The notes under the pieces: generated by a model
Database searches by the model: none
The model's input: only the letters and a program-made list of their open reading frames with translations
What the model was told of the DNA's origin: nothing
Program-made: the position numbers and the translations under genes
Origin: a virus
Direction: 5' to 3' (one strand)
DNA length: 41,192 nt
IMG/VR virus record: IMGVR_UViG_3300007542_000057
Coordinates: 1-41,192 of that record
Part shown: positions 30,084 to 40,735 of the stretch, in pieces
How the letters are laid out: each line of letters starts with the position of its first letter
Position numbering within the stretch: the first letter of the stretch is position 1

Positions 30084-30350
30084 TTATATGTTATGGTCTA
30101 GTCTTACAAAGATAGGATTTTTCTTTCCAATTCTATTGGAAGAAAATGTTTGATAGAAAAACTCTACAGCATCTAAGTAGGGAATATCATCTGCTAAAAT
30201 ATCTATAAATACATCTTGATCGTATACTGCTACAATAGTATTATCAATCTCGCTGTAGCCTATTAGTGCATCATCCATACCTGATATTTTCAGAGATCCT
30301 GTATCTCTTAATACTTCTAGTGTTTTTATCTTAAATGGGTCTCTATCCAT
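30084..30350 (-). CDS. Small acidic protein, paralogue of the 31683-31925 product
   Basis: An 88-aa acidic protein. The core has GMDDALIGYSE (24-34), TIVAVYDQDVFIDIL (38-52), YLDAVEFFYQ (58-67) and a GKKNPIFV end (74-81). The product of 31683-31925 has the same order: GFDEAIIGVDE, LIYSCEKCIEIL, YEDAIEHFEYNV, GTKTPIWC. The two are clearly related. I recall this family as small uncharacterised phage proteins that occur singly or in pairs. The function is unknown. It is the last gene of the - strand block and overlaps the previous gene by eight bases. Confidence 0.75.
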   Translation of the reverse strand: MDRDPFKIKTLEVLRDTGSLKISGMDDALIGYSEIDNTIVAVYDQDVFIDILADDIPYLDAVEFFYQTFSSNRIGKKNPIFVRLDHNI

Positions 30351-31682: not shown

Positions 31683-31925
31683 TTATAAATGATCAACGCA
31701 CCATATTGGTGTTTTTGTTCCTACATAAGATCCCCTTACATTATACTCAAAATGCTCTATTGCATCTTCGTAATTCATACCTTCACCCACTAATATCTCT
31801 ATACATTTTTCGCAAGAATATATCAACCTAAAAGAGTGCTCATCTACACCAATGATAGCTTCATCGAAGCCATTTGCTATTAACAACTCCTCTTCATCGA
31901 ACCATTCTAATATTTTATCTAACAT
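31683..31925 (-). CDS. Small acidic protein, paralogue of the 30084-30350 product
   Basis: An 80-aa acidic protein (GFDEAIIGVDEHSFRLIYS, then CEKCIEIL, YEDAIEHFEYNVRG and GTKTPIWCVDHL). It shares its order and spacing with the product of 30084-30350. Four cysteines (CEKC plus one near the end) are special to this copy or in part shared with recalled homologues; metal binding is possible but the pattern is incomplete. Unknown function. It lies one base from the upstream 78-aa gene. Confidence 0.75.
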   Translation of the reverse strand: MLDKILEWFDEEELLIANGFDEAIIGVDEHSFRLIYSCEKCIEILVGEGMNYEDAIEHFEYNVRGSYVGTKTPIWCVDHL

Positions 31926-31926
31926 A

Positions 31927-32163
31927 TTATCCGATTGTTATATTGTCTATTTGCTCATTCCAATGGTTTACCATAGCATCGTGCGCCTCCTTTAGACTAT
32001 CGTGCTTATAGAAAGCCTCAGCAGCCTCATTAGCCTGCTCTTCGCAGAACTTATTAACCCTAAGAAAACTACTCTTAGTTTTTGGTGGCATAGGTGCATC
32101 TATCTCATCTAATAACGCAGGTAACATTAATGTCATTAAGTATATTTTTAATTCAGGTGTCAT
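31927..32163 (-). CDS. Small helical protein, unknown function
   Basis: A 78-aa protein. It begins with a hydrophobic helix (ELKIYLMTLMLPALLDEI), followed by PMPPKTKSSFLRVNKFCEEQANEAAEAFY and a last amphipathic helix. The first helix is too mixed with charge to be a sure membrane segment. No family is recognised. The start overlaps the DnaA-domain gene stop by four bases (ATGA), so it depends on that gene for translation. Confidence 0.6.
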   Translation of the reverse strand: MTPELKIYLMTLMLPALLDEIDAPMPPKTKSSFLRVNKFCEEQANEAAEAFYKHDSLKEAHDAMVNHWNEQIDNITIG

Positions 32164-32780
32164 AAGTTTGATATAATAAATTCTTCTAATTTTTCGTATT
32201 CTTTTCTAAATTGCTTATCTGTTTCAATAAGATCCCCTGCTGTTCTTATACCGTGTATAACTGTAGAGTGATCTCGATTACCTAGATACTTACCTATTTC
32301 TTTTAATGTCACGTTTGGCATATTAAACTTTGTTATATAGCAAAACATTTGTCTAGGTACTACAAGCTCTCTTCTTCTGCAAGTAGATAATATTTCTTTT
32401 TTGGGTTGTGCGTAAAATTTAGATAATAAGCTAAGTAGTTTGTCGAATTTTATCCTACCCTTCATACTATTTTCTGATTGCCAACCACCAAACTGATCTA
32501 TACCTAAAGATGCGTTTAACGATACAGGGTTCTCCTTTAATACATATCTATATGATTTAACTACATTATTTGTAACCCCAACATTGTTATTTACCTCAAT
32601 CTTCTCTACCTGACCCCATTCTACCAAGTTCTCTAACTTTTGTCTTGCATCCTTCATTTTTATGGCACTTCCTCTACAAAGTGGTATTATAATACTATCT
32701 CGTGTATACCCTTTTTTTAACAGATTCCTAATATAAATATAGTCTGAATAATCTGTTTTTACATCTTTTACTAATTTCAT
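32160..32780 (-). CDS. Replication-initiator-like protein: winged-helix-like part plus DnaA domain IV
   Basis: A 206-aa protein. The C-terminal ~75 residues match DnaA domain IV: RRRELVVPRQMFCYITKF (135-152), VTLKEIGKYLGNRDHSTVIH (155-176), then the final helix. The GxRDHSTVxH signature, which reads the DnaA box in bacterial DnaA, is complete. The N-terminal half (YIRNLLKKGYTRDSIIIPL, KDARQKLENLVEWGQVEKIE, then SYRYVL) looks like a winged helix. The AAA+ ATPase part of DnaA is absent. It may bind the phage origin or modulate host DnaA. It begins a transcript section after a hairpin terminator and a 71-base leader. Confidence 0.85.
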   Translation of the reverse strand: MKLVKDVKTDYSDYIYIRNLLKKGYTRDSIIIPLCRGSAIKMKDARQKLENLVEWGQVEKIEVNNNVGVTNNVVKSYRYVLKENPVSLNASLGIDQFGGWQSENSMKGRIKFDKLLSLLSKFYAQPKKEILSTCRRRELVVPRQMFCYITKFNMPNVTLKEIGKYLGNRDHSTVIHGIRTAGDLIETDKQFRKEYEKLEEFIISNL

Positions 32781-32851
32781 TTGTTTATTTAATTTATTTA
32801 ATTTAATTTCGTACTATTCCTCGGAAGGGATGTTTTCATAACTTACTTATT

Positions 32852-32877
32852 AAAAGCCCTCAATGAGGGCTTTTTTT
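32852..32877. terminator. Hairpin terminator between zinc-ribbon and DnaA-domain genes
   Basis: AAAAGCCCTC, loop AAT and GAGGGCTTTT form a 10-bp stem. On the + strand it is followed by seven T in all; on the minus strand by TTTTAATAAG, so it can act on minus-strand transcripts just at the TAA of the 53-aa gene. The 70 bases that follow toward 32780 hold an A/T-rich leader and a dyad TTCCTCGGAA, but no visible promoter. Confidence 0.75.
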
Positions 32878-33037
32878 ATTCTTCAGCTTTACTTACACAT
32901 TCATTGCAAAGCACTTGTGAATTGTGAGTGCAATCTAATATAAGATTACCGGATCTCAAACAATTTACACAAAAATTTTGACCAAACTCCCAAAACTGTT
33001 TGTTGAGAGGGTGATGATTTTCTTCTGTTACGTTCAT
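32876..33037 (-). CDS. Small zinc-ribbon-like protein (53 aa)
   Basis: A short frame from ATG 33037-33035 to TAA 32878-32876. It encodes 53 residues with cysteine pairs C23-V-N-C26 and C44-N-E-C47, plus C36 and H38 between, a zinc-ribbon-like spacing. It fills the gap between the VRR-NUC gene and the terminator, reads in the operon direction, starts 14 bases after the upstream stop, and its stop codon touches the terminator. A DNA- or protein-binding role is inferred. The regular cysteine pairs make chance unlikely. Confidence 0.7.
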   Translation of the reverse strand: MNVTEENHHPLNKQFWEFGQNFCVNCLRSGNLILDCTHNSQVLCNECVSKAEE

Positions 33038-33051
33038 ATTATTATTATTAT

Positions 33052-33294
33052 TTATTTACCTCTGTACACTTCGGTTTTAAAACCAAATGCACTAAGTTCT
33101 TTTAATCTGTATTCTTGTAGTTTTGACAGTTTGCCTGTTTCGGTTTTGATTTCGCTAAAGATGACAGCAGCGTCAGGAGGTATTGCGATTACATCGGGGA
33201 TTCCATTCTTATTGGTCTTAATTAATTTAAGAACATAATATCCTTCAGCTTCTAATTCCTTGATCCTTTTGCTTTGTATCTGCTGTTCGGTCAT
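33052..33294 (-). CDS. VRR-NUC domain nuclease
   Basis: An 80-aa single-domain PD-(D/E)XK nuclease. It has NGIPDVIAI (30-38, catalytic D34), FSEIKTETGKLSKLQEYRL (46-64; E48-x-K50, then the Q-x-x-R/K-type helix) and GFKTEVYRG at the end. This is the compact phage form of VRR-NUC. Such enzymes are thought to cut branched DNA and often stand next to SF2 helicases of the kind encoded at 34218-35636, as here with two HNH genes between. Its start overlaps the upstream gene by four bases. Confidence 0.9.
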   Translation of the reverse strand: MTEQQIQSKRIKELEAEGYYVLKLIKTNKNGIPDVIAIPPDAAVIFSEIKTETGKLSKLQEYRLKELSAFGFKTEVYRGK

Positions 33295-33680
33295 TTACTT
33301 TTCTTGTACCTTCTCCGTTCTTCTTTAGAGACGTAACCATTTTTGTTATAGTCAGCAGGGTCAAACTTACTTTTAGATAATGGCTTACTCAAGTCTCTCT
33401 TAGTAGACTTTCCGTTTTGACCATTCCTAGCACGGTTACTGCTTCTTTTTTCTTCAATTAATTTACCACCTTTTGTGTGGCTCATATCCTTGCCGTCTCC
33501 GTTACCGTAAGTTCCTGCCTCTTTATTTTTTCTGTTAAGCAAAGCACGATATTTCTTACGCTTCTCTGTTGCGTGGTATTTCTTATCATATGCTATTTTT
33601 TTCTTACGTCTTTCTTCAGACATACCTAGTTTGTCATACGATGGATGTTTACCTGCACGAGAGTTTCTTTTGCTTTTCAT
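33291..33680 (-). CDS. Small basic HNH-like protein with an EF-hand-type loop
   Basis: A 129-aa, Lys/Arg-rich protein. The middle GNGDGKDMSHTKGGKL (59-74) and SSNRARNGQ (80-88) resemble the DGKDxxH ... GGSN ... SxxNRSRNG layout I recall from small phage HNH-like proteins, but the usual second His/Asn positions are only partly there. The C-terminus has DYNKNGYVSKEE (110-121), an exact fit to a calcium EF-hand or dockerin-type loop (DxNxNGxVxxxE). It lies between the NUMOD4-HNH gene and VRR-NUC. A TAACTTTG box at 33693-33686 may give it its own promoter. Confidence 0.6.
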   Translation of the reverse strand: MKSKRNSRAGKHPSYDKLGMSEERRKKKIAYDKKYHATEKRKKYRALLNRKNKEAGTYGNGDGKDMSHTKGGKLIEEKRSSNRARNGQNGKSTKRDLSKPLSKSKFDPADYNKNGYVSKEERRRYKKSK

Positions 33681-33682
33681 TA

Positions 33683-34213
33683 CTACAAAGTTAACATATT
33701 TCTGAATTCTTTATTGTCTCCGTCAAATAAATGCATATTCTCTAATGCTTTTTGATACATATTAAGCCCATCCTGCTTGTATATGAACCTTCCTAAGTGA
33801 ACTGTTTTGTCTCCTATCTTAATCTGAGCCCGCCATTTATTATCTCGTTTTGACCAATACACACCGCAGTCTGTTTTGCCACGTGAAGAGTTCTCACGAT
33901 TAGATATGATTTGCAAATTAAATACGTGATTGTTTAAACGATTGTTGTCTATATGGTCCACCACAAAATTCATCCCGTCAGGCTCGTGCTCTAGGAATGC
34001 CATAGCGACTGCAACGTGTACTCCATATGTTTTCCTTTTGCCGTCTTTATGTAAACCGACTATTAGATAGCCCTTGTTACTAATACTAGGCTTTCTTATT
34101 CTTTCTTTCCCGTACTTCAGGCTCTTTACAGCCCCGTAGTTGCTTACCTGATAGACTCCATCGTAACCGGGGATATCTTTAAATATTTCTTCTTTTTCTA
34201 TTATTTTGTACAT
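33683..34213 (-). CDS. NUMOD4-HNH homing endonuclease-like protein
   Basis: A 176-aa protein. Residues ~8-40 are a NUMOD4 domain (FKDIPGYDGVYQVSNYGAVKSL). HNH follows: VHVAVAMAF (65-73), VDHIDNNRLNN (85-95) and LQIISNRENSS (100-110). The C-terminal GVYWSKRDNKWRAQIKIG (117-134) is an AP2-like DNA-binding part. This layout is that of free-standing homing endonucleases, which spread by cutting a site in genomes that lack them. It sits between the SF2 helicase and the small basic gene with short spacers, breaking an otherwise continuous recombination operon, as a selfish insertion would. All key HNH residues appear present. Confidence 0.9.
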   Translation of the reverse strand: MYKIIEKEEIFKDIPGYDGVYQVSNYGAVKSLKYGKERIRKPSISNKGYLIVGLHKDGKRKTYGVHVAVAMAFLEHEPDGMNFVVDHIDNNRLNNHVFNLQIISNRENSSRGKTDCGVYWSKRDNKWRAQIKIGDKTVHLGRFIYKQDGLNMYQKALENMHLFDGDNKEFRNMLTL

Positions 34214-34217
34214 AATT

Positions 34218-35636
34218 TTATAAATTTAACAAATCTTTCTTAAAGTGTTTGGTAGTGTAATCTTTTTTATTAGATACAGCCTTGTATATCTTATCTTCTA
34301 TACCACCTTCAGCGAATACCCAATATACATCGCTCTCTAATCTATCGCTAGTTGTCATCCTATCCCTGCTTTGCCAATAGCTTGTAGCACTAAAGTCAAT
34401 ATTATAGTACACCAATGCTTCAGCCTTACGAAGACTAATACCTTCTCTGCCTGCTTGGATCTGTAAAGCGATGGTTTTATGCGTTGTATTGAACTCATCC
34501 AACTCCGTGCATAGATCATCACCATAGACCTCTTTTAAAGCGTTGTACTCCTCTTTAAACTTGTAGAAGATACCTGTCTTTGCATCTCCAAAGTTGTCGT
34601 GTATAAACTCTGCTTTACTTAGATCAAGTATTTTTGAGTTACCTGATTCAAATTTTACCGTACCTGAATATATCTGATGCAGTTTAGTCATTAGCTTTAC
34701 GCTTGTATCACCAAGCACAACTTCATCCTTACCCTCAACAACCAAATCCTTTTTCAACTTGTTCGCTATTCTATAAGTGATATCAGCCATTTTTACGTAG
34801 AGTTTATGCTCACGAGTATCAACCTTAAAACCTGCTTCTTTTTGCGAATACGATATAGTATACGGCTTCACGGCATCTATGATAGTTTGCTTACCTTTAG
34901 AGTAGTCTCTGATATTCATACCATTTATCTTTCTTTCGGTAACATTAACATAATCATCGCAGAAACGATAAAAGTTTTTGTAACTACTGAATGGATTGTT
35001 AGGTATACCATACACCTGATGATACATCTGACTGAACGACTCAGGAGTTGGCGTACCCGACATAAGAATAACTTTTGGTTTTGTAGATCTAATTATCTCA
35101 CGAACCTGTTTCGCTCTCCTACTAGGCTTAGGGAATGCACCCATACTATGTGCCTCGTCCAATATAATTACATCGTATTTAGAATCATCTAACTTATGTA
35201 TGCTCTCGTAATTAGTTACAACAAGATTATATTTTGGGTTAAGACTTTCGTAATCGCCCTCTATACTTGATATAGCTTTTTTCTTTGTAAGAAACAATAC
35301 ACTATTTGCATTTACTTTTTCGCATATACCTAAACTTGTAAGGGTTTTTCCTGTCCTCACTTCCATAGCGAGGTACAGGAATCCCTTGTCAACCAATACG
35401 TCACTACCGTCATTGATTATTTTCTTTTGGTAATCTCTAAACTTAAAACTTAATTTAGTCATATCCTTATTTAACTTTAAGTCGATTAACTTAAATAAGG
35501 GTCTTTGCGAATGAATAACCTTATGTCTATTCATTAACCTTGCAAGCAAAGAATCTTTATCATCCGAGTCTCCATAGACTTCAGACGATATTATCTTTCT
35601 TCCTTTCTGTGCTGTAACTTTATATAATCCTTTCAT
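34218..35636 (-). CDS. SF2 (DEAD/SNF2-like) helicase
   Basis: A 472-aa ATP-dependent DNA helicase. Motif Q-like FRDYQKKII (66-74); Walker A MEVRTGKTLTS (91-101, K97); DEAH (160-163); motif III MSGTPTP (192-198); motif V QAGREGISL (394-402); motif VI QSRDRM (422-427). The size and motif spacing fit phage helicases of the SWI/SNF-like group used in replication or recombination and often paired with VRR-NUC, which lies downstream here. The N-terminal ~60 residues have a short strand-rich region before motif Q. The start overlaps the primase-helicase stop by four bases, so both are made from one message. Confidence 0.92.
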   Translation of the reverse strand: MKGLYKVTAQKGRKIISSEVYGDSDDKDSLLARLMNRHKVIHSQRPLFKLIDLKLNKDMTKLSFKFRDYQKKIINDGSDVLVDKGFLYLAMEVRTGKTLTSLGICEKVNANSVLFLTKKKAISSIEGDYESLNPKYNLVVTNYESIHKLDDSKYDVIILDEAHSMGAFPKPSRRAKQVREIIRSTKPKVILMSGTPTPESFSQMYHQVYGIPNNPFSSYKNFYRFCDDYVNVTERKINGMNIRDYSKGKQTIIDAVKPYTISYSQKEAGFKVDTREHKLYVKMADITYRIANKLKKDLVVEGKDEVVLGDTSVKLMTKLHQIYSGTVKFESGNSKILDLSKAEFIHDNFGDAKTGIFYKFKEEYNALKEVYGDDLCTELDEFNTTHKTIALQIQAGREGISLRKAEALVYYNIDFSATSYWQSRDRMTTSDRLESDVYWVFAEGGIEDKIYKAVSNKKDYTTKHFKKDLLNL

Positions 35637-38020
35637 TTGCTTTTAATAATAATCCATTGACCGTAATTATCTTTTCCTTTTTCAGGCTCTATACCTGTAG
35701 TGTACAAACCATATTCTTTTATCCATCTGTAAAAAACAGTACGACTTATCGTTAGCTTTGCTCTTGGTCCGTAATCAGGATAATCTAAAATGAAATGATT
35801 AAATAATTCATTACCCATAAGTTTAGTATCTAGAGATAACATTGGATTTGGATCTCCACTAATAACACCACACCACTCTATGAAATCATAACAGGTACTA
35901 GCCTCTAATGATCTAGCCTTTAGGTTTACAAAATTACTTTCGATTAGACCTGTTCGCATATAACTACTAAGACAATTTACCATATAGCTATCAAACAAAC
36001 ACCACTCATCTCTATCCCAATCTTCAAATAAATGCTTACCAAACTCATCATACGGCGTATTGTTTCTATTATAATGCTGATGTAATTCCACTTCCCACTT
36101 ACGTCTAGCGAATGAATTTCCACTTCCCTTAATCGCATAATTGGTTGTTATAGCAACCTTTGGAGATTTACTATATGGTATTTTTATTGCATCCTTATTC
36201 TTCTTCTCAAGCGTTAAACCTTCCGTTATAACACTAAACAACCTCTCGAAGTCAAAATGCTTTTTAACGTCATCAAAAAGCAATATCTGTGTATCTGCCG
36301 ATACTGTCTGATATGGAAATGATTTTTCAAAATTAAATGCCTTGCCATCAATCACTACTAACTTTTTCATATGAGACAATGCATTCATAAATATTCCCTT
36401 GCCTGTTCCACCTTCAGGATTCTCTGACATAACTTCATCATTAAGTATTACAGCCGGGCAATAAGATAGGTTCTTATATCCGTGCATCATAAAACCAATA
36501 GTAGATTCCATTGTATCTATTCTATCTTTCTCACCACCACATATCCTTGATATAAATATTTTATAATCGCATTTATCGTTTTCGCATAATGCAAAATTCC
36601 TATTTATTACGTGGTCTCTCCAAACATATCCATCTAAATCTAAGTAGTCTATCATCTCTATGCCTGTTGTGGTAACCTTGACGGCACAATTTATATAGTA
36701 AAGATAGGAATGATCTTTAGTGTCCTCCACAAAATGAATATCAATAGTCTCTATCAGGTTGAGGAAATTTTCTTGGAAATAAGAAACCTTTTCAGCAAAG
36801 TAGTTATAGATTGACCTGTCCTCCAATTGTATAAGGTAGTCAAGAACAAAATCTTTTATCTCCTCTGATGAGGTATTATCAATAAGGTTATTTACTATCC
36901 TTACAAATATATAATTCTGCGAACCTTCGGGATATATCTTATGAAATCCATTATCTTCCAAAAACTTCTTAAACGAATATGGTATTATTTTAATAACACC
37001 CTTTTCGCTCTTAGTCCAAAACTGTGTGTTAGACTCTTCTTTTTCTATACTCGATACAACCTTATTGACATCGTCTGAGGAAAGGTCGCTATTCTCATCT
37101 AATATCTCTGATATAATCTCCTTACGAGTAGCACCACCTCTTAATTTTAATTTTATGTAATTGATCTTATCCTCATCCTCGTAGTACTTTGTACCAAATT
37201 TATTAGCGTTACTATATGCAGACTCGACAGTTGTTTGTATTTCTTTAATAGAAAAATCATCCGTTGCATATTGGTTTAATATATAATATGCAGTAGTCTT
37301 TGCGATACCATAATCATTAAAAGCCATTGCTAATATGTATGTGTTTTGGTTTCTGTGACCCTCGCTCATTGGATATTTCTTTTCCCACCACTTCATAAGT
37401 ATATTTATAACTTTTGTTTCATCGGTGATTGGAATGCTTTTGTATGTGGAAGAAGAATCTATTTCCCTATACTCTCGTTCCTTTATCTTATCCCATACTT
37501 TAGAATCTTTATTGATATAAATATTCTTATCGTAAGATTCGTAACACACCCTACTTACATTTTTAGATGTCTTATCAAAATAAGGAGAATTAAAATACTC
37601 CTCTAATGATATGAAATAGTTAACGTGGTTTTCTGCATCAGCAGGTATCTTAACAATTACCTTTAGACCTTTACCTGAAGGAGATACAAAGACAGAGTAT
37701 ACATACTTATCTTTAGATAGCCTTGACTTATCATCCTGCATATCTTTAAATTTATTATAGTTATCAAAGTCTAAACATATAAAACCACTATGACTTACAA
37801 GTGATTTATCTTCACGTTTAGTAAACTCCCCACTAAAACATATAGCAGGTAGCATCTTCTTTAATTCATTTCTCTGTAGCTTATCATTCTCGCTACGTAT
37901 ACTTTTTACCAAATCACGACTCTTTCCATCCTTTATTCTATCCAATATTAAATCTATATTTCTGTAGAAAGGAGTCGATGTTTCTCTTATATTTTTAAAA
38001 ATTGTGACGTTTTTGTTCAT
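35633..38020 (-). CDS. Primase-helicase: BT4734/VirE-like N-terminal domain plus SF3 helicase
   Basis: A 795-aa protein. Residues ~60-190 match the BT4734/VirE-like domain (SGFICLDFDNYNKF at 78-91, VFVSPSGKGLKVIVKIP at 110-126). The paired aspartates and SGKGLK recall archaeo-eukaryotic primases, so primer synthesis is likely but inferred. Residues ~200-290 are a helical PriCT-like linker (MSEGHRNQNTYILAMAFNDYG). The SF3/D5-like helicase part has Walker A NPEGGTGKGIF (534-544, K541), Walker B QILLFDDV (578-585) and KVAITTN (621-627). In Walker A the usual Ser/Thr after Lys is Gly. The C-terminus has a winged-helix-like end. It probably primes and unwinds phage DNA for the host polymerase. Confidence 0.88.
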   Translation of the reverse strand: MNKNVTIFKNIRETSTPFYRNIDLILDRIKDGKSRDLVKSIRSENDKLQRNELKKMLPAICFSGEFTKREDKSLVSHSGFICLDFDNYNKFKDMQDDKSRLSKDKYVYSVFVSPSGKGLKVIVKIPADAENHVNYFISLEEYFNSPYFDKTSKNVSRVCYESYDKNIYINKDSKVWDKIKEREYREIDSSSTYKSIPITDETKVINILMKWWEKKYPMSEGHRNQNTYILAMAFNDYGIAKTTAYYILNQYATDDFSIKEIQTTVESAYSNANKFGTKYYEDEDKINYIKLKLRGGATRKEIISEILDENSDLSSDDVNKVVSSIEKEESNTQFWTKSEKGVIKIIPYSFKKFLEDNGFHKIYPEGSQNYIFVRIVNNLIDNTSSEEIKDFVLDYLIQLEDRSIYNYFAEKVSYFQENFLNLIETIDIHFVEDTKDHSYLYYINCAVKVTTTGIEMIDYLDLDGYVWRDHVINRNFALCENDKCDYKIFISRICGGEKDRIDTMESTIGFMMHGYKNLSYCPAVILNDEVMSENPEGGTGKGIFMNALSHMKKLVVIDGKAFNFEKSFPYQTVSADTQILLFDDVKKHFDFERLFSVITEGLTLEKKNKDAIKIPYSKSPKVAITTNYAIKGSGNSFARRKWEVELHQHYNRNNTPYDEFGKHLFEDWDRDEWCLFDSYMVNCLSSYMRTGLIESNFVNLKARSLEASTCYDFIEWCGVISGDPNPMLSLDTKLMGNELFNHFILDYPDYGPRAKLTISRTVFYRWIKEYGLYTTGIEPEKGKDNYGQWIIIKSK

Positions 38021-38054
38021 TGTGTGACGTTTTTGTGACGTTTTTGTGACGTTT
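38003..38054. repeat. Short direct repeats GTGACGTTTTT upstream of the primase gene
   Basis: Four copies of GTGACGTTTT(T) begin at 38004, 38024, 38035 and 38046; the last three are spaced exactly 11 bases, one helical turn. The first lies inside codons 3-6 of the primase gene and the others in its leader. They look like protein-binding iterons or a leader control site. Confidence 0.7.
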
Positions 38055-38246
38055 TTTTTTAGTTAAGTTATTGATTATCAAATACATTGACGATTTTGAC
38101 GATTTTTCTCATACATATGAGAGAAAAAAAAATATATATTACTATAGTAGTAGTAGTAGTATAGGGGACATTGAAAATCGTCATTTAGTAAAGCAAATAA
38201 AAGGGGATCTGAATTGACCCCCTTGTTATCTACATTTAGTTTTGGG
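38021..38246. other. Intergenic region with TGACG motifs, dyad and triplet repeat (origin/regulatory candidate)
   Basis: The longest gap in the window. Besides the 11-base repeats it has two direct TGACGATTTT copies (38088-38106), one inverted copy (AAAATCGTCA, 38174-38183), a dyad TCTCATACATATGAGA (38107-38122) next to an A-run and a (TAG)n stretch (about 38145-38160). No promoter box is seen. The mix of repeats and AT-rich DNA beside a primase-helicase fits an origin or a regulatory region. It also holds a 60-aa frame with a run of six Tyr from the triplet repeat that I do not take as a gene. Confidence 0.5.
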
Positions 38247-38519
38247 TTAAAAAGGTTCAACTGAATCTTCTTGTATGATTTCCATCACATCTTTTTTCCC
38301 TTGTGGTTTAGGTTGCCAAGTATCAAGTTCGCAATAATACTTTCCGTTTTTACTCTGCTTGATGTCTAGGTTAACCCATCCATTCTTTTGGTTTGCTTGT
38401 AAGAATGCAATAGCATCGTTTACATTGATTGACTGAGACCCTACTACAAATTCAGGTGCATTTTCTTTTCGCTTAAAGATAAAACCATCAGCGAATACTT
38501 TTTCTGTTTGATTTGACAT
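38247..38519 (-). CDS. Small conserved phage protein, possibly DNA-associated
   Basis: A 90-aa protein: KVFADGFIFKRKENAPEFVVG (7-27), SINVNDAIAFLQ (29-40), GWVNLDIKQSKNGKYYCELDTWQPK (47-71) and an acidic end (EIIQEDSVEPF). I recall this family (DGFxFKRxxxAPxFVxG ... GWVNLxIxxSxxGKYYxEL) in marine phages beside replication and recombination genes. The alternating strands and the acidic tail, like those of phage single-strand-binding proteins, make a ssDNA-binding-like role possible but unproven. It has its own promoter (38550-38578) and an inverted repeat overlaps that promoter, so it may be regulated. Confidence 0.7.
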   Translation of the reverse strand: MSNQTEKVFADGFIFKRKENAPEFVVGSQSINVNDAIAFLQANQKNGWVNLDIKQSKNGKYYCELDTWQPKPQGKKDVMEIIQEDSVEPF

Positions 38520-38549
38520 AATTTATTAATTTGATTTCCCTTGATTAAA

Positions 38550-38585
38550 CAAAAGTAGATATGATAAGGGGATTCAAATCTACTT
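38550..38585 (-). promoter_or_regulatory. Bacteroidota promoter with overlapping inverted repeat (operator candidate)
   Basis: On the minus strand TTTG (38578-38575), 17 bases, then TACTTTTG (38557-38550) make a good -33/-7 pair. Perfect 8-bp arms AAGTAGAT (38553-38560) and ATCTACTT (38578-38585) flank it, overlapping both elements. A repressor or activator could bind the arms, or the RNA of the upstream gene could fold a hairpin there. The upstream gene (38594-39325) ends just before it. Confidence 0.65.
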
Positions 38586-38593
38586 ATTTTTTT

Positions 38594-39325
38594 TTAAATT
38601 TCCTCAGATATAAAATAATTATCTATACTTTCAGGACTATCGTCAGCAAAAAACTTATTATAAACGTCTATTGCTTTTATAACTTTCTCTTTTCCACGAT
38701 CCAATGTGTCTATAGTTGGCTTAAATATTCCAAGCATTCTACTTGTCTTATCTATTACATAGAACAGCAGAGGCTTACCAAATAATTGCTCGTATATGTA
38801 TGCTTGGCTATCGTAGTTATACTTCCTTGCAGACCACTTAAAATCATTTATATTGCCTGTTGTCTTTAAGTCTATAAGCATATTTGGATGTACAATATCA
38901 GCCTTACCTTTCCACATAACCCCACCTATCTCTTTTACAGCAGGTACTTCGTACTTATTGTCTGAATGCCTGATGTCGTTAAAGAAATCGTAGTTAGATA
39001 GCATAGTATCTACCCAAGATTGTATCTCTAATAACTCCTTATCAAGCAAGGCGAATGATAGTTCGTTCTCTTCGCAATACTCCTTATAACCTTTTGTGTT
39101 ACGGCTACTTGAATCGAATGACTTGACATCCTTTGCCTTGTCAGGCTCAAGTATAAGTTGATGAAAATACCTACCTTTTGCAAACGCAGGGTTATCTTCT
39201 GTCCTTACACCAAACTCTCTTGGATTCGTCAATAAAGTACCTATGTCGGAGTTTGATAGATATTGGCTACCAAACTCCCCATAGTACTCATTATCATCTT
39301 TTAATCTTTCTAATACATCTTTCAT
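38594..39325 (-). CDS. PD-(D/E)XK exonuclease (RecE / exodeoxyribonuclease VIII-like)
   Basis: A 243-aa nuclease. KGRYFHQLIL (50-59) gives the KGxxxH element of RecE-type exonucleases. Then come E126, WKGKADIV (138-145, D143), LIDLKTTG (150-157, D152-x-K154) and YDSQAYIYE (171-179, the Q-x-x-x-Y helix). These enzymes resect 5' ends of dsDNA and load an annealing protein. The next gene upstream encodes a Sak-like annealing protein and overlaps the exonuclease start by four bases, so the two make a recombinase pair. The order of motifs is complete, so activity is likely. Confidence 0.9.
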   Translation of the reverse strand: MKDVLERLKDDNEYYGEFGSQYLSNSDIGTLLTNPREFGVRTEDNPAFAKGRYFHQLILEPDKAKDVKSFDSSSRNTKGYKEYCEENELSFALLDKELLEIQSWVDTMLSNYDFFNDIRHSDNKYEVPAVKEIGGVMWKGKADIVHPNMLIDLKTTGNINDFKWSARKYNYDSQAYIYEQLFGKPLLFYVIDKTSRMLGIFKPTIDTLDRGKEKVIKAIDVYNKFFADDSPESIDNYFISEEI

Positions 39326-39939
39326 TTCAGTAGTTTTTGTAGTTCTGATTTAGTAGATGTACTGATAGTATACTTTGTTTTAAGTTGATCTAAAATGGTG
39401 TCTATGCCTTTTGATTTGTTAGCTTTAACAAACGCACTAACCTTACTCCAATTATCATCATCTTTTTTCAATGAGATGAGAGCTATTTCTTTCACCTCCT
39501 CTTGAACTTCTGACGTTGGTATATCATCACCTGCAAAGATGTATATGCCAAGACCAAACATAGCGAGGTTTTTAACTAAACACCTCATCATTGTTTTGTT
39601 GATGTCGAATGTTGTCGCAGCCTCAACACTTTTCTCTCCATATCTTGTAGAGTATTTGTAAGGTTGTTTCTTCATTGACTTGTTAGCACCATCCATAACA
39701 GGTAACCACATAGGTAGTGTTTCCCCATCAATAGTAACTGATGTGTTGCACATAAAACCTAACGCATCATCGTAGGTTGTCTCTCCGATTTCATACGTTG
39801 CATCAGGGCAATTCTTTTTAACCTCGCTCCAAGCGTAAGCCCAAGATAAATAGGTTAGTCCATTTTTCTTCTCAACGAATTTGTTTACGTTGATCTTCGA
39901 TAACATTTCAAATGTTGTCTCTTTCTTTTTTGTTGTCAT
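39322..39939 (-). CDS. Single-strand annealing protein, DUF1071 / Sak family
   Basis: A 205-aa protein. Residues ~28-140 show the DUF1071 (Sak, Rad52-superfamily) signature: LTYLSWAYAWSEVKK (28-42), VTIDGETLPMWLPVMDGANK (68-87), then TTFDINKTMMRCLVKNLAM (109-127) and GLGIYIFAGDD (129-139). Such proteins anneal complementary single strands during phage recombination and repair. The C-terminal ~60 residues are Lys/Ser-rich helices. It is coupled by an ATGA overlap to the RecE-like exonuclease, its expected partner. Its start is set in the last 32 bases of the preceding gene, after an A/T-rich leader. Confidence 0.92.
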   Translation of the reverse strand: MTTKKKETTFEMLSKINVNKFVEKKNGLTYLSWAYAWSEVKKNCPDATYEIGETTYDDALGFMCNTSVTIDGETLPMWLPVMDGANKSMKKQPYKYSTRYGEKSVEAATTFDINKTMMRCLVKNLAMFGLGIYIFAGDDIPTSEVQEEVKEIALISLKKDDDNWSKVSAFVKANKSKGIDTILDQLKTKYTISTSTKSELQKLLK

Positions 39940-40321
39940 TTAATTTATTATTTAATTTATTGTAATTAGACATTAGATCATCTCTAAGTGTCCATAATTG
40001 TTTTACTTTTTTACTGCTATTCTTATCGTTAACTTCATCTCTAATCCTACTCTCTATTGCCTTTAATTTTAAACGATAATTGTACAAAGTTACCTCAAAA
40101 ACTCCACATTTCCAACCGTATTTTTTAAAAAAATCCATATGTTCTTCGCTTATTGGTACGTACATTGAATGGTTTGTGTTTAGTATTTGAATCTCGTGTG
40201 TATAATCATCTTTGATTAACTTAACTCCAAGTAGAGATATAGATTGATAGCCGTTGTTGATTAGTTTAGCTGATGCTTTATCACTAAGTGCTTGATTAAA
40301 TATATCTTCTAATTTGTACAT
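39908..40321 (-). CDS. Protein of unknown function with C-terminal coiled coil
   Basis: A 137-aa protein. Residues 1-80 are mixed alpha/beta (KLINNGYQSISLLGVKLI, YTHEIQILNTNHSMYVP, MDFFKKYGWKCGVFEVTLYN), the rest a charged helix (LKLKAIESRIRDE, then LWTLRDDLMSNYNKLNNKL) likely to be a coiled coil. I do not recognise a family. Its end overlaps the annealing protein gene by 32 bases, unusually long for this operon; the tail of Asn, Lys and Asp in that overlap follows from the A-rich leader. A role in recombination is possible by position only. Confidence 0.65.
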   Translation of the reverse strand: MYKLEDIFNQALSDKASAKLINNGYQSISLLGVKLIKDDYTHEIQILNTNHSMYVPISEEHMDFFKKYGWKCGVFEVTLYNYRLKLKAIESRIRDEVNDKNSSKKVKQLWTLRDDLMSNYNKLNNKLNDNKKERDNI

Positions 40322-40605
40322 ATATCTTCAATTAATTGTTTATAATCAGCATCTTTTTTTATCTTCTCTCTGATTCTTTTTATGCCGTGAGATATAGTTG
40401 TATGGTATTTAACCTCATAACCTTTACTTGTCATAAGCCTTTGTATGTTTACTAATTGGAATCCATTTTCAAAGCACACAAAGTATAGTATCTGCCTTGC
40501 ATCCACTACCTCCCTCTCTCCAATATCATCAAATAGTTTTTTCTTTGGCATTTTAAATGCTTTAGCTATTTTCTTTACGTACTCGTCAAATCTTTTGTGT
40601 TTCAT
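40309..40605 (-). CDS. Second DnaA-domain-IV-like protein
   Basis: A 98-aa protein when started at ATG 40605 (MKHKRFDEYVKKIAKAFKM). It follows the DnaA domain IV order: a first helix, GEREVVDARQILYFVCFENG (29-48), a middle helix, then KYHTTISHGIKRIREKI (66-82) where DnaA has RDHTTVxHa, and a final helix. A longer frame reaches ATG 40677 (122 aa), but those 24 residues are in the space of another likely gene (40586-40735), so the short start is preferred. It is only a DNA-binding domain, with no ATPase, like the product of 32160-32780. It may bind the phage origin or compete with host DnaA. Confidence 0.72.
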   Translation of the reverse strand: MKHKRFDEYVKKIAKAFKMPKKKLFDDIGEREVVDARQILYFVCFENGFQLVNIQRLMTSKGYEVKYHTTISHGIKRIREKIKKDADYKQLIEDICTN

Positions 40606-40735
40606 TTTTATTTTCGTTATTTTTTCTCTCTCTGTTAATTTTCTCCCACTCATTGTACCAATAGTCGGAGTCTGCATATACGGTATAAAAATCCATAGAA
40701 TGCATTTCTTCTAATAATGTTTTAGTCTTGCTCAT
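40586..40735 (-). CDS. Small ORF between MazG-like and DnaA-like genes (49 aa)
   Basis: A frame from ATG 40735-40733 to TGA 40588-40586. It encodes 49 residues: a helical start (SKTKTLLEEMHSMDFY), an aromatic and acidic middle (YADSDYWYNEWEKIN) and a Lys/Asn/Glu end. It overlaps the stop of the upstream gene by 14 bases and the preferred start of the DnaA-like gene by 20, the pattern of coupling seen in this operon. The aromatic-rich middle looks like a real protein rather than a shadow of AT-rich DNA. Function unknown. Confidence 0.6.
   Translation of the reverse strand: MSKTKTLLEEMHSMDFYTVYADSDYWYNEWEKINRERKNNENKNETQKI

Follow-up and report, generated by a model that had tools for sequence, protein, structure and literature searches.

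A phage genome fragment (IMG/VR virus record IMGVR_UViG_3300007542_000057; the whole stretch of 41,192 bases is called the window below) encodes two separate proteins with the fold of DnaA domain IV and no AAA+ part, and carries an element organised like a bacterial oriC directly before its primase-helicase gene. The gene pair and the element recur throughout a family of related phages, and complete genomes of the family carry the element twice. We propose that the shorter protein is probably the origin-recognition factor at this element, where it would recruit the primase-helicase, with the second copy of the element acting along with the first. If this is true, an origin is recognised by DnaA domain IV without the DnaA motor, and box reading is separable from melting. 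The results suggest a candidate function for a widespread, unassigned class of phage genes, and they propose where replication may begin in a phage family known from hundreds of viral contigs. Phage DnaA-helix-turn-helix proteins are already annotated as such, and in the open-access literature no description was found of phage DnaA domain IV pairs, trios or oriC-like elements.

Genome context

Complete relatives of the window phage measure about 55-65 kb, so that the window, with some 41 of 60 kb, covers approximately two thirds of its genome. At least 561 IMG/VR stretches encode a relative of its primase-helicase, and the best 80 loci were fetched for comparison. To judge from related phages, the host presumably belongs to the Bacteroidota. 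Phage contigs of the family have been binned into Cytophagales, Aliivibrio and Pseudomonadales MAGs (L093, L094 and L095, respectively), and the latter two placements are likely binning errors.

The genes considered here lie on the minus strand. The short DnaA domain IV gene (40309-40605) is followed by genes for a 137-aa protein, a Sak-type single-strand annealing protein (39322-39939), a RecE/exonuclease VIII-type nuclease (38594-39325), a small protein (38247-38519) and the primase-helicase (35633-38020), and then by those for an SF2 helicase (34218-35636), an HNH nuclease, a VRR-NUC protein, the long DnaA domain IV protein (32160-32780) and a phosphoesterase. Profile matches identified the annealing protein, the exonuclease and the SF2 helicase, and showed that primase and helicase are fused in one phage protein (BT4734-like N-terminus, PriCT_1, DUF5906). 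The small protein, syntenic in L003, L005 and L006, gave no family match in profile searches; it has an acidic C-terminal tail and may be SSB-like.

In agreement with the initial annotation, which had seen no DNA polymerase in the window, no match to PolA, PolB or PolIII-alpha was obtained in the window or in any of 13 relatives (14 records in all), a result that holds for these profiles, since Maribacter phage Panino likewise lacked a PolA or PolIII-alpha match despite its annotated DNA polymerase. This absence is consistent with a phage origin served by a host polymerase. The same annotation had envisaged recruitment of host DnaA, DnaB and polymerase to an origin of the phage; the polymerase part agrees with the above and an origin-like element is present in the window, but recruitment of host DnaB is unneeded because the phage encodes its own primase-helicase.

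Several further features of the window were recorded. A NUMOD4/HNH endonuclease gene (33683-34213, minus strand) is probably mobile, since it is 94% identical in L003 yet missing at the corresponding place in L005. Two related small genes (31683-31925 and 30084-30350, minus strand) both match phrog_13182. A co-chaperonin GroES-like protein (phrog_13932) is encoded at 1486-2049 on the plus strand, and a relative, MW202828, carries groEL and a chaperonin-10 gene. No tRNA genes were found in the window, nor any known structured RNA or any defence or anti-defence match.

Two DnaA domain IV proteins without an ATPase

The long protein (206 aa) consists of an N-terminal PadR-like winged helix and a C-terminal domain IV. 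Residues 114-179 match Pfam Bac_DnaA_C with 62 bits (cut-off 31.5), and the protein matches E. coli DnaA domain IV (PDB 1j1v) with an E-value of 2e-8. In the structural model domain IV spans residues 110-206 (Z 16.5 to 3pvp, rmsd 1.1 over 95 residues). The additional winged-helix-like domain noticed in the initial annotation was recovered at residues 6-85 as a PadR/LmrR-type fold, with a middling best Z of 9.8.

The short protein comprises about 98 aa from a methionine at 40605, the start originally assigned, which is conserved in 42 relatives; the reading frame itself opens at 40677. Its Bac_DnaA_C match of 25 bits lies under the curated cut-off, but the AlphaFold2 model (42 aligned sequences, pLDDT 91.9) superimposes on the DnaA-box-bound domain IV of 1j1v with Z 14.0 and rmsd 1.5 over 90 residues. 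The outcome named initially as refuting, a predicted structure that does not resemble domain IV, therefore did not occur. Profile and fold together thus bear out the view that both proteins are domain IV proteins without AAA+ parts. The DnaA AAA+ domain (PF00308) was absent from the window and three relatives in a profile search. Both proteins match PHROG 16091, annotated as of unknown function, in profile searches (E 1.8e-6 for the long and 3.4e-6 for the short protein).

The phage proteins share with bacterial DnaA domain IV (1j1v, 3pvp) the fold and the counterparts of Arg399 and the recognition helix, which in the short family read VDAR and HSSIIHG, respectively. In DnaA the recognition helix contacts TnCACA and Arg399 contacts TTA (PMC5742627). 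Unlike in bacterial DnaA, the DNA reader of the phage is a separate protein without an AAA+ domain.

With a family-built profile the pair was found at two fixed places in 35 of the 37 related loci with enough flank (L005 being left out as a duplicate of L022), showing that it is no quirk of a single phage. In almost every locus the short gene precedes the primase by 1.8-3.1 kb, and the long gene lies 4-7 kb beyond the primase start. Bac_DnaA_C was matched in 49 of 50 whole records.

The long slot is variable. Most relatives have a domain IV with a C-terminal extension resembling a coiled coil, and the winged-helix build occurs in the window, L003, L014 and L019. Of 59 relatives, at least 8 (L041, L054, L058, L062, L068, L077, L082 and L087) have a long protein without the canonical recognition motif DH(S/T)T, which the window phage retains, whereas the short protein keeps its core. 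The two proteins are therefore under different constraint, and it is possible that tasks are divided between them, as was suggested initially. Just ahead of the long gene a 53-aa zinc-ribbon-like ORF (CVNC...CNEC; 32876-33037, minus strand), shorter than the usual length limit, is followed by a strong terminator; the same holds for L003 and L005.

The initial annotation had also raised the possibility that host initiation is blocked. In such a role the proteins would sit on host DnaA boxes and so block or titrate initiation by the host. A lone domain IV could conceivably compete with DnaA for boxes, and the long protein of the window phage has the canonical motif. On the other hand, the phage boxes described below always deviate from TTATCCACA at one particular position, their clusters are on the DNA of the phage itself, the window contains a single canonical TTATCCACA without any cluster, and the short gene is lodged among phage recombination and replication genes. 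The proposal thus found no support, and we regard a role against the host as very improbable.

An oriC-like element in front of the primase-helicase gene

A cluster of box-like repeats, a feature of oriC-type origins, was found at 38003-38185 on the minus strand. From the primase outwards the element consists of four tandem boxes AAAACGTCACA (38003-38056) in 11-bp steps with one longer gap, the last of which falls within the first codons of the primase; a perfect IHF consensus AATCAATAACTTA (38064-38076); a double box, two copies of AATCGTCA at a spacing of 9 (38087-38104); an AT-rich tract resembling an unwinding element (38107-38161), with (TAG)5-6 on the plus strand; and, on the far side of the tract, an inverted AATCGTCA box (38176-38183, plus strand). 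CGTCA, which occurs 42 times in the window, is present 7 times in 250 bp at the element compared with a maximum of 4 in 200 shuffles.

In nearly all loci examined a conserved non-coding stretch separates the primase start from the small gene. Read toward the primase, the family element contains a terminator, then an inverted box and an AT-rich tract, a double box (9-bp spacing), an IHF-type site and 2-4 boxes, the latter spaced by about 11 bp and reaching into the start codon. The consensus of the double box, WATYRACAT, departs from the 9-mer DnaA box TTATNCACA at position 6 and to some extent at position 2, and the family-wide box WATYRACA reads as a DnaA box changed at one main position. The box of the window phage, ATCGTCA, is one position further from the DnaA box than the family consensus. 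We take these repeats to be putative initiator boxes.

An exact match to the IHF consensus was present in 52 of the 83 primase-side copies and in 17 of the 18 second copies (see below), as against 2.3% of shuffles; the consensus scored was that of E. coli, and Bacteroidota IHF-like proteins may read another. Judged by sequence, the site is placed between the box on the unwinding side and the further boxes, as in E. coli oriC, where the order is unwinding element (DUE), R1, IHF site and further boxes (PMC5742627). The phage element thus runs in the order of E. coli oriC, from unwinding tract through box and IHF site to boxes. It differs from bacterial oriC in a box altered mainly at position 6 and in the presence of two elements per genome. 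In addition, the phage boxes are oriented opposite to R1 in oriC.

In DnaA-trio (basal unwinding) systems a (3'-GAT-5')n run adjoins a DnaA box in a set orientation. A reading of (TAG)n as a DnaA-trio was considered and not adopted: the repeat is limited to one subgroup and to certain second copies, it occurs on either strand, and its flanking boxes point opposite to the chromosomal arrangement. (TAG)7-10 is found in the AT-rich tract of the second copies of L096, L099, L040 and L052, on the strand opposite to that of the window. GC skew tracks gene direction in these phages and can therefore not place the origin.

The element occurs twice in complete genomes

In 18 loci a profile of the element picked up another copy upstream. 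A covariance model using sequence only, for which 43 primase-side copies were taken, matched each of 51 records and detected two copies in every one of the 28 that measure at least 55 kb, on the same strand and 8.4-11.7 kb apart round the circle. The relatives had been sampled via primase similarity, and kin genomes inherit both copies by descent. One copy was seen in the window, and since the record is a partial genome we infer that the window phage has a second. In G004, its closest complete relative, the second copy has CGTCA boxes too.

The two copies of a genome tend to share the same box variant. For 38 genomes the likeness in box type of paired copies averaged 0.78 compared with 0.55, above all 10,000 re-pairings, and common descent contributes to this sharing; in L006, L023 and L015 the two copies agree poorly. 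In L104, L105, L108 and L109, and in L064, L077 and L087, the second copy adjoins an inverted partial copy of the element, which gives it the look of facing both ways. tRNA-Arg(TCT) adjoins the second copy in L098 (1663-1735), L099 (1683-1925), L101 (2308-2552) and L033 (218-292), and two of these cases also have tRNA-Ile and tRNA-Leu.

An arrangement of this kind could also represent an operator, by which the DnaA domain IV protein or proteins regulate the primase operon and a second locus, the AT-rich tract being promoter DNA. The boxes overlap the primase start codon, the first half of the double box often reads TTGACA, a winged helix of PadR type forms part of the long protein, and second copies precede tRNA-Arg genes in some relatives. 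However, the second copy has no closely following gene on its strand in L096 and L006, the double box is further from the IHF site in many second copies (L064, L077, L087), unlike a -35/-10 spacing, and an operator would need neither an IHF site nor a long AT-rich tract with boxes on both sides. We therefore consider an operator unlikely. Repeats together with an IHF site are also a property of lambda cosB, and a packaging site read by terminase would account for both, but the copies lie about 10 kb apart, one of them before the primase gene and distant from the terminase genes, and the element contains DnaA-box-like repeats and an AT-rich tract, making packaging hardly credible.

Proposed mode of initiation

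In the origin-recognition reading that we favour, the free-standing domain IV of the short protein would bind the DnaA-box-like repeats just before the primase-helicase gene. A host IHF or HU protein may bend the DNA at the IHF-type site, phage-encoded HU/IHF being absent from the phages searched. The box-bound short proteins would then recruit the phage primase-helicase, which would open the AT-rich tract and prime, leaving synthesis to the host polymerase. The second element, some 10 kb away, would work jointly with the first, whether as an additional origin or as a partner site that initiation requires, and the long protein, of variable build, is probably an accessory factor that binds boxes or element. 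Since box class showed no covariation with the contact residues of the short protein beyond overall divergence (four T-class genomes being usable), and no covariation signal with the primase C-terminus, the boxes are provisionally assigned to the short protein on grounds of conservation, of location and of the likeness of the repeats to DnaA boxes.

Why a genome should carry two conserved oriC-like elements is a clear question that can be put to the test. A more elaborate scheme, a split DnaA with a separate box reader, the primase-helicase as motor, two elements acting jointly and the second DnaA domain IV protein setting order or timing, is put forward tentatively.

Comparison with known systems

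Phage P4 alpha is a fused primase-helicase that reads repeats itself, and the cis sites of P4, ori and crr, lie kilobases apart. The present family likewise has a fused primase-helicase, repeats and two distant cis sites; unlike in P4, separate DnaA domain IV proteins are proposed as the repeat readers. It might be argued that here too the primase-helicase reads the boxes, like alpha on its iterons, with the DnaA domain IV proteins serving otherwise, given the same fusion, the same number of sites and an element immediately preceding the primase gene. The boxes, however, resemble DnaA boxes, and in Elemovirus, whose primase is related at the N-terminus and differs at the C-terminus, the DnaA domain IV genes and the element are both absent. 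Direct reading by the primase-helicase is accordingly judged improbable, and reading by the short protein is retained.

Lambda O is a small DNA-binding protein that acts on repeats beside an AT-rich tract and recruits a helicase, at the single origin of lambda. The proposed system resembles it in having a small DNA binder, repeats, an adjoining AT-rich tract and helicase recruitment, and differs in the unrelated fold of the binder and in a phage-encoded helicase.

Closer counterparts of the proteins are gp13 of Cellulophaga phage phi19:3, annotated as 'DnaA protein', and gp26 of Muminvirus (PHROG 16091), both ATPase-less domain IV proteins of Bacteroidota phages. Unlike the window phage, phi19:3 and Muminvirus each encode a single such protein, and the element was matched in neither of them. 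It was not matched in ctOK67 either, and in Panino one match was obtained, weak and partial (17.6 bits). Within the gene preceding an annotated DNA replication protein, phi19:3 carries five 12-bp repeats GTAACAGATACA (L007:8118-8180), which are unrelated to the element and are possibly that phage's origin.
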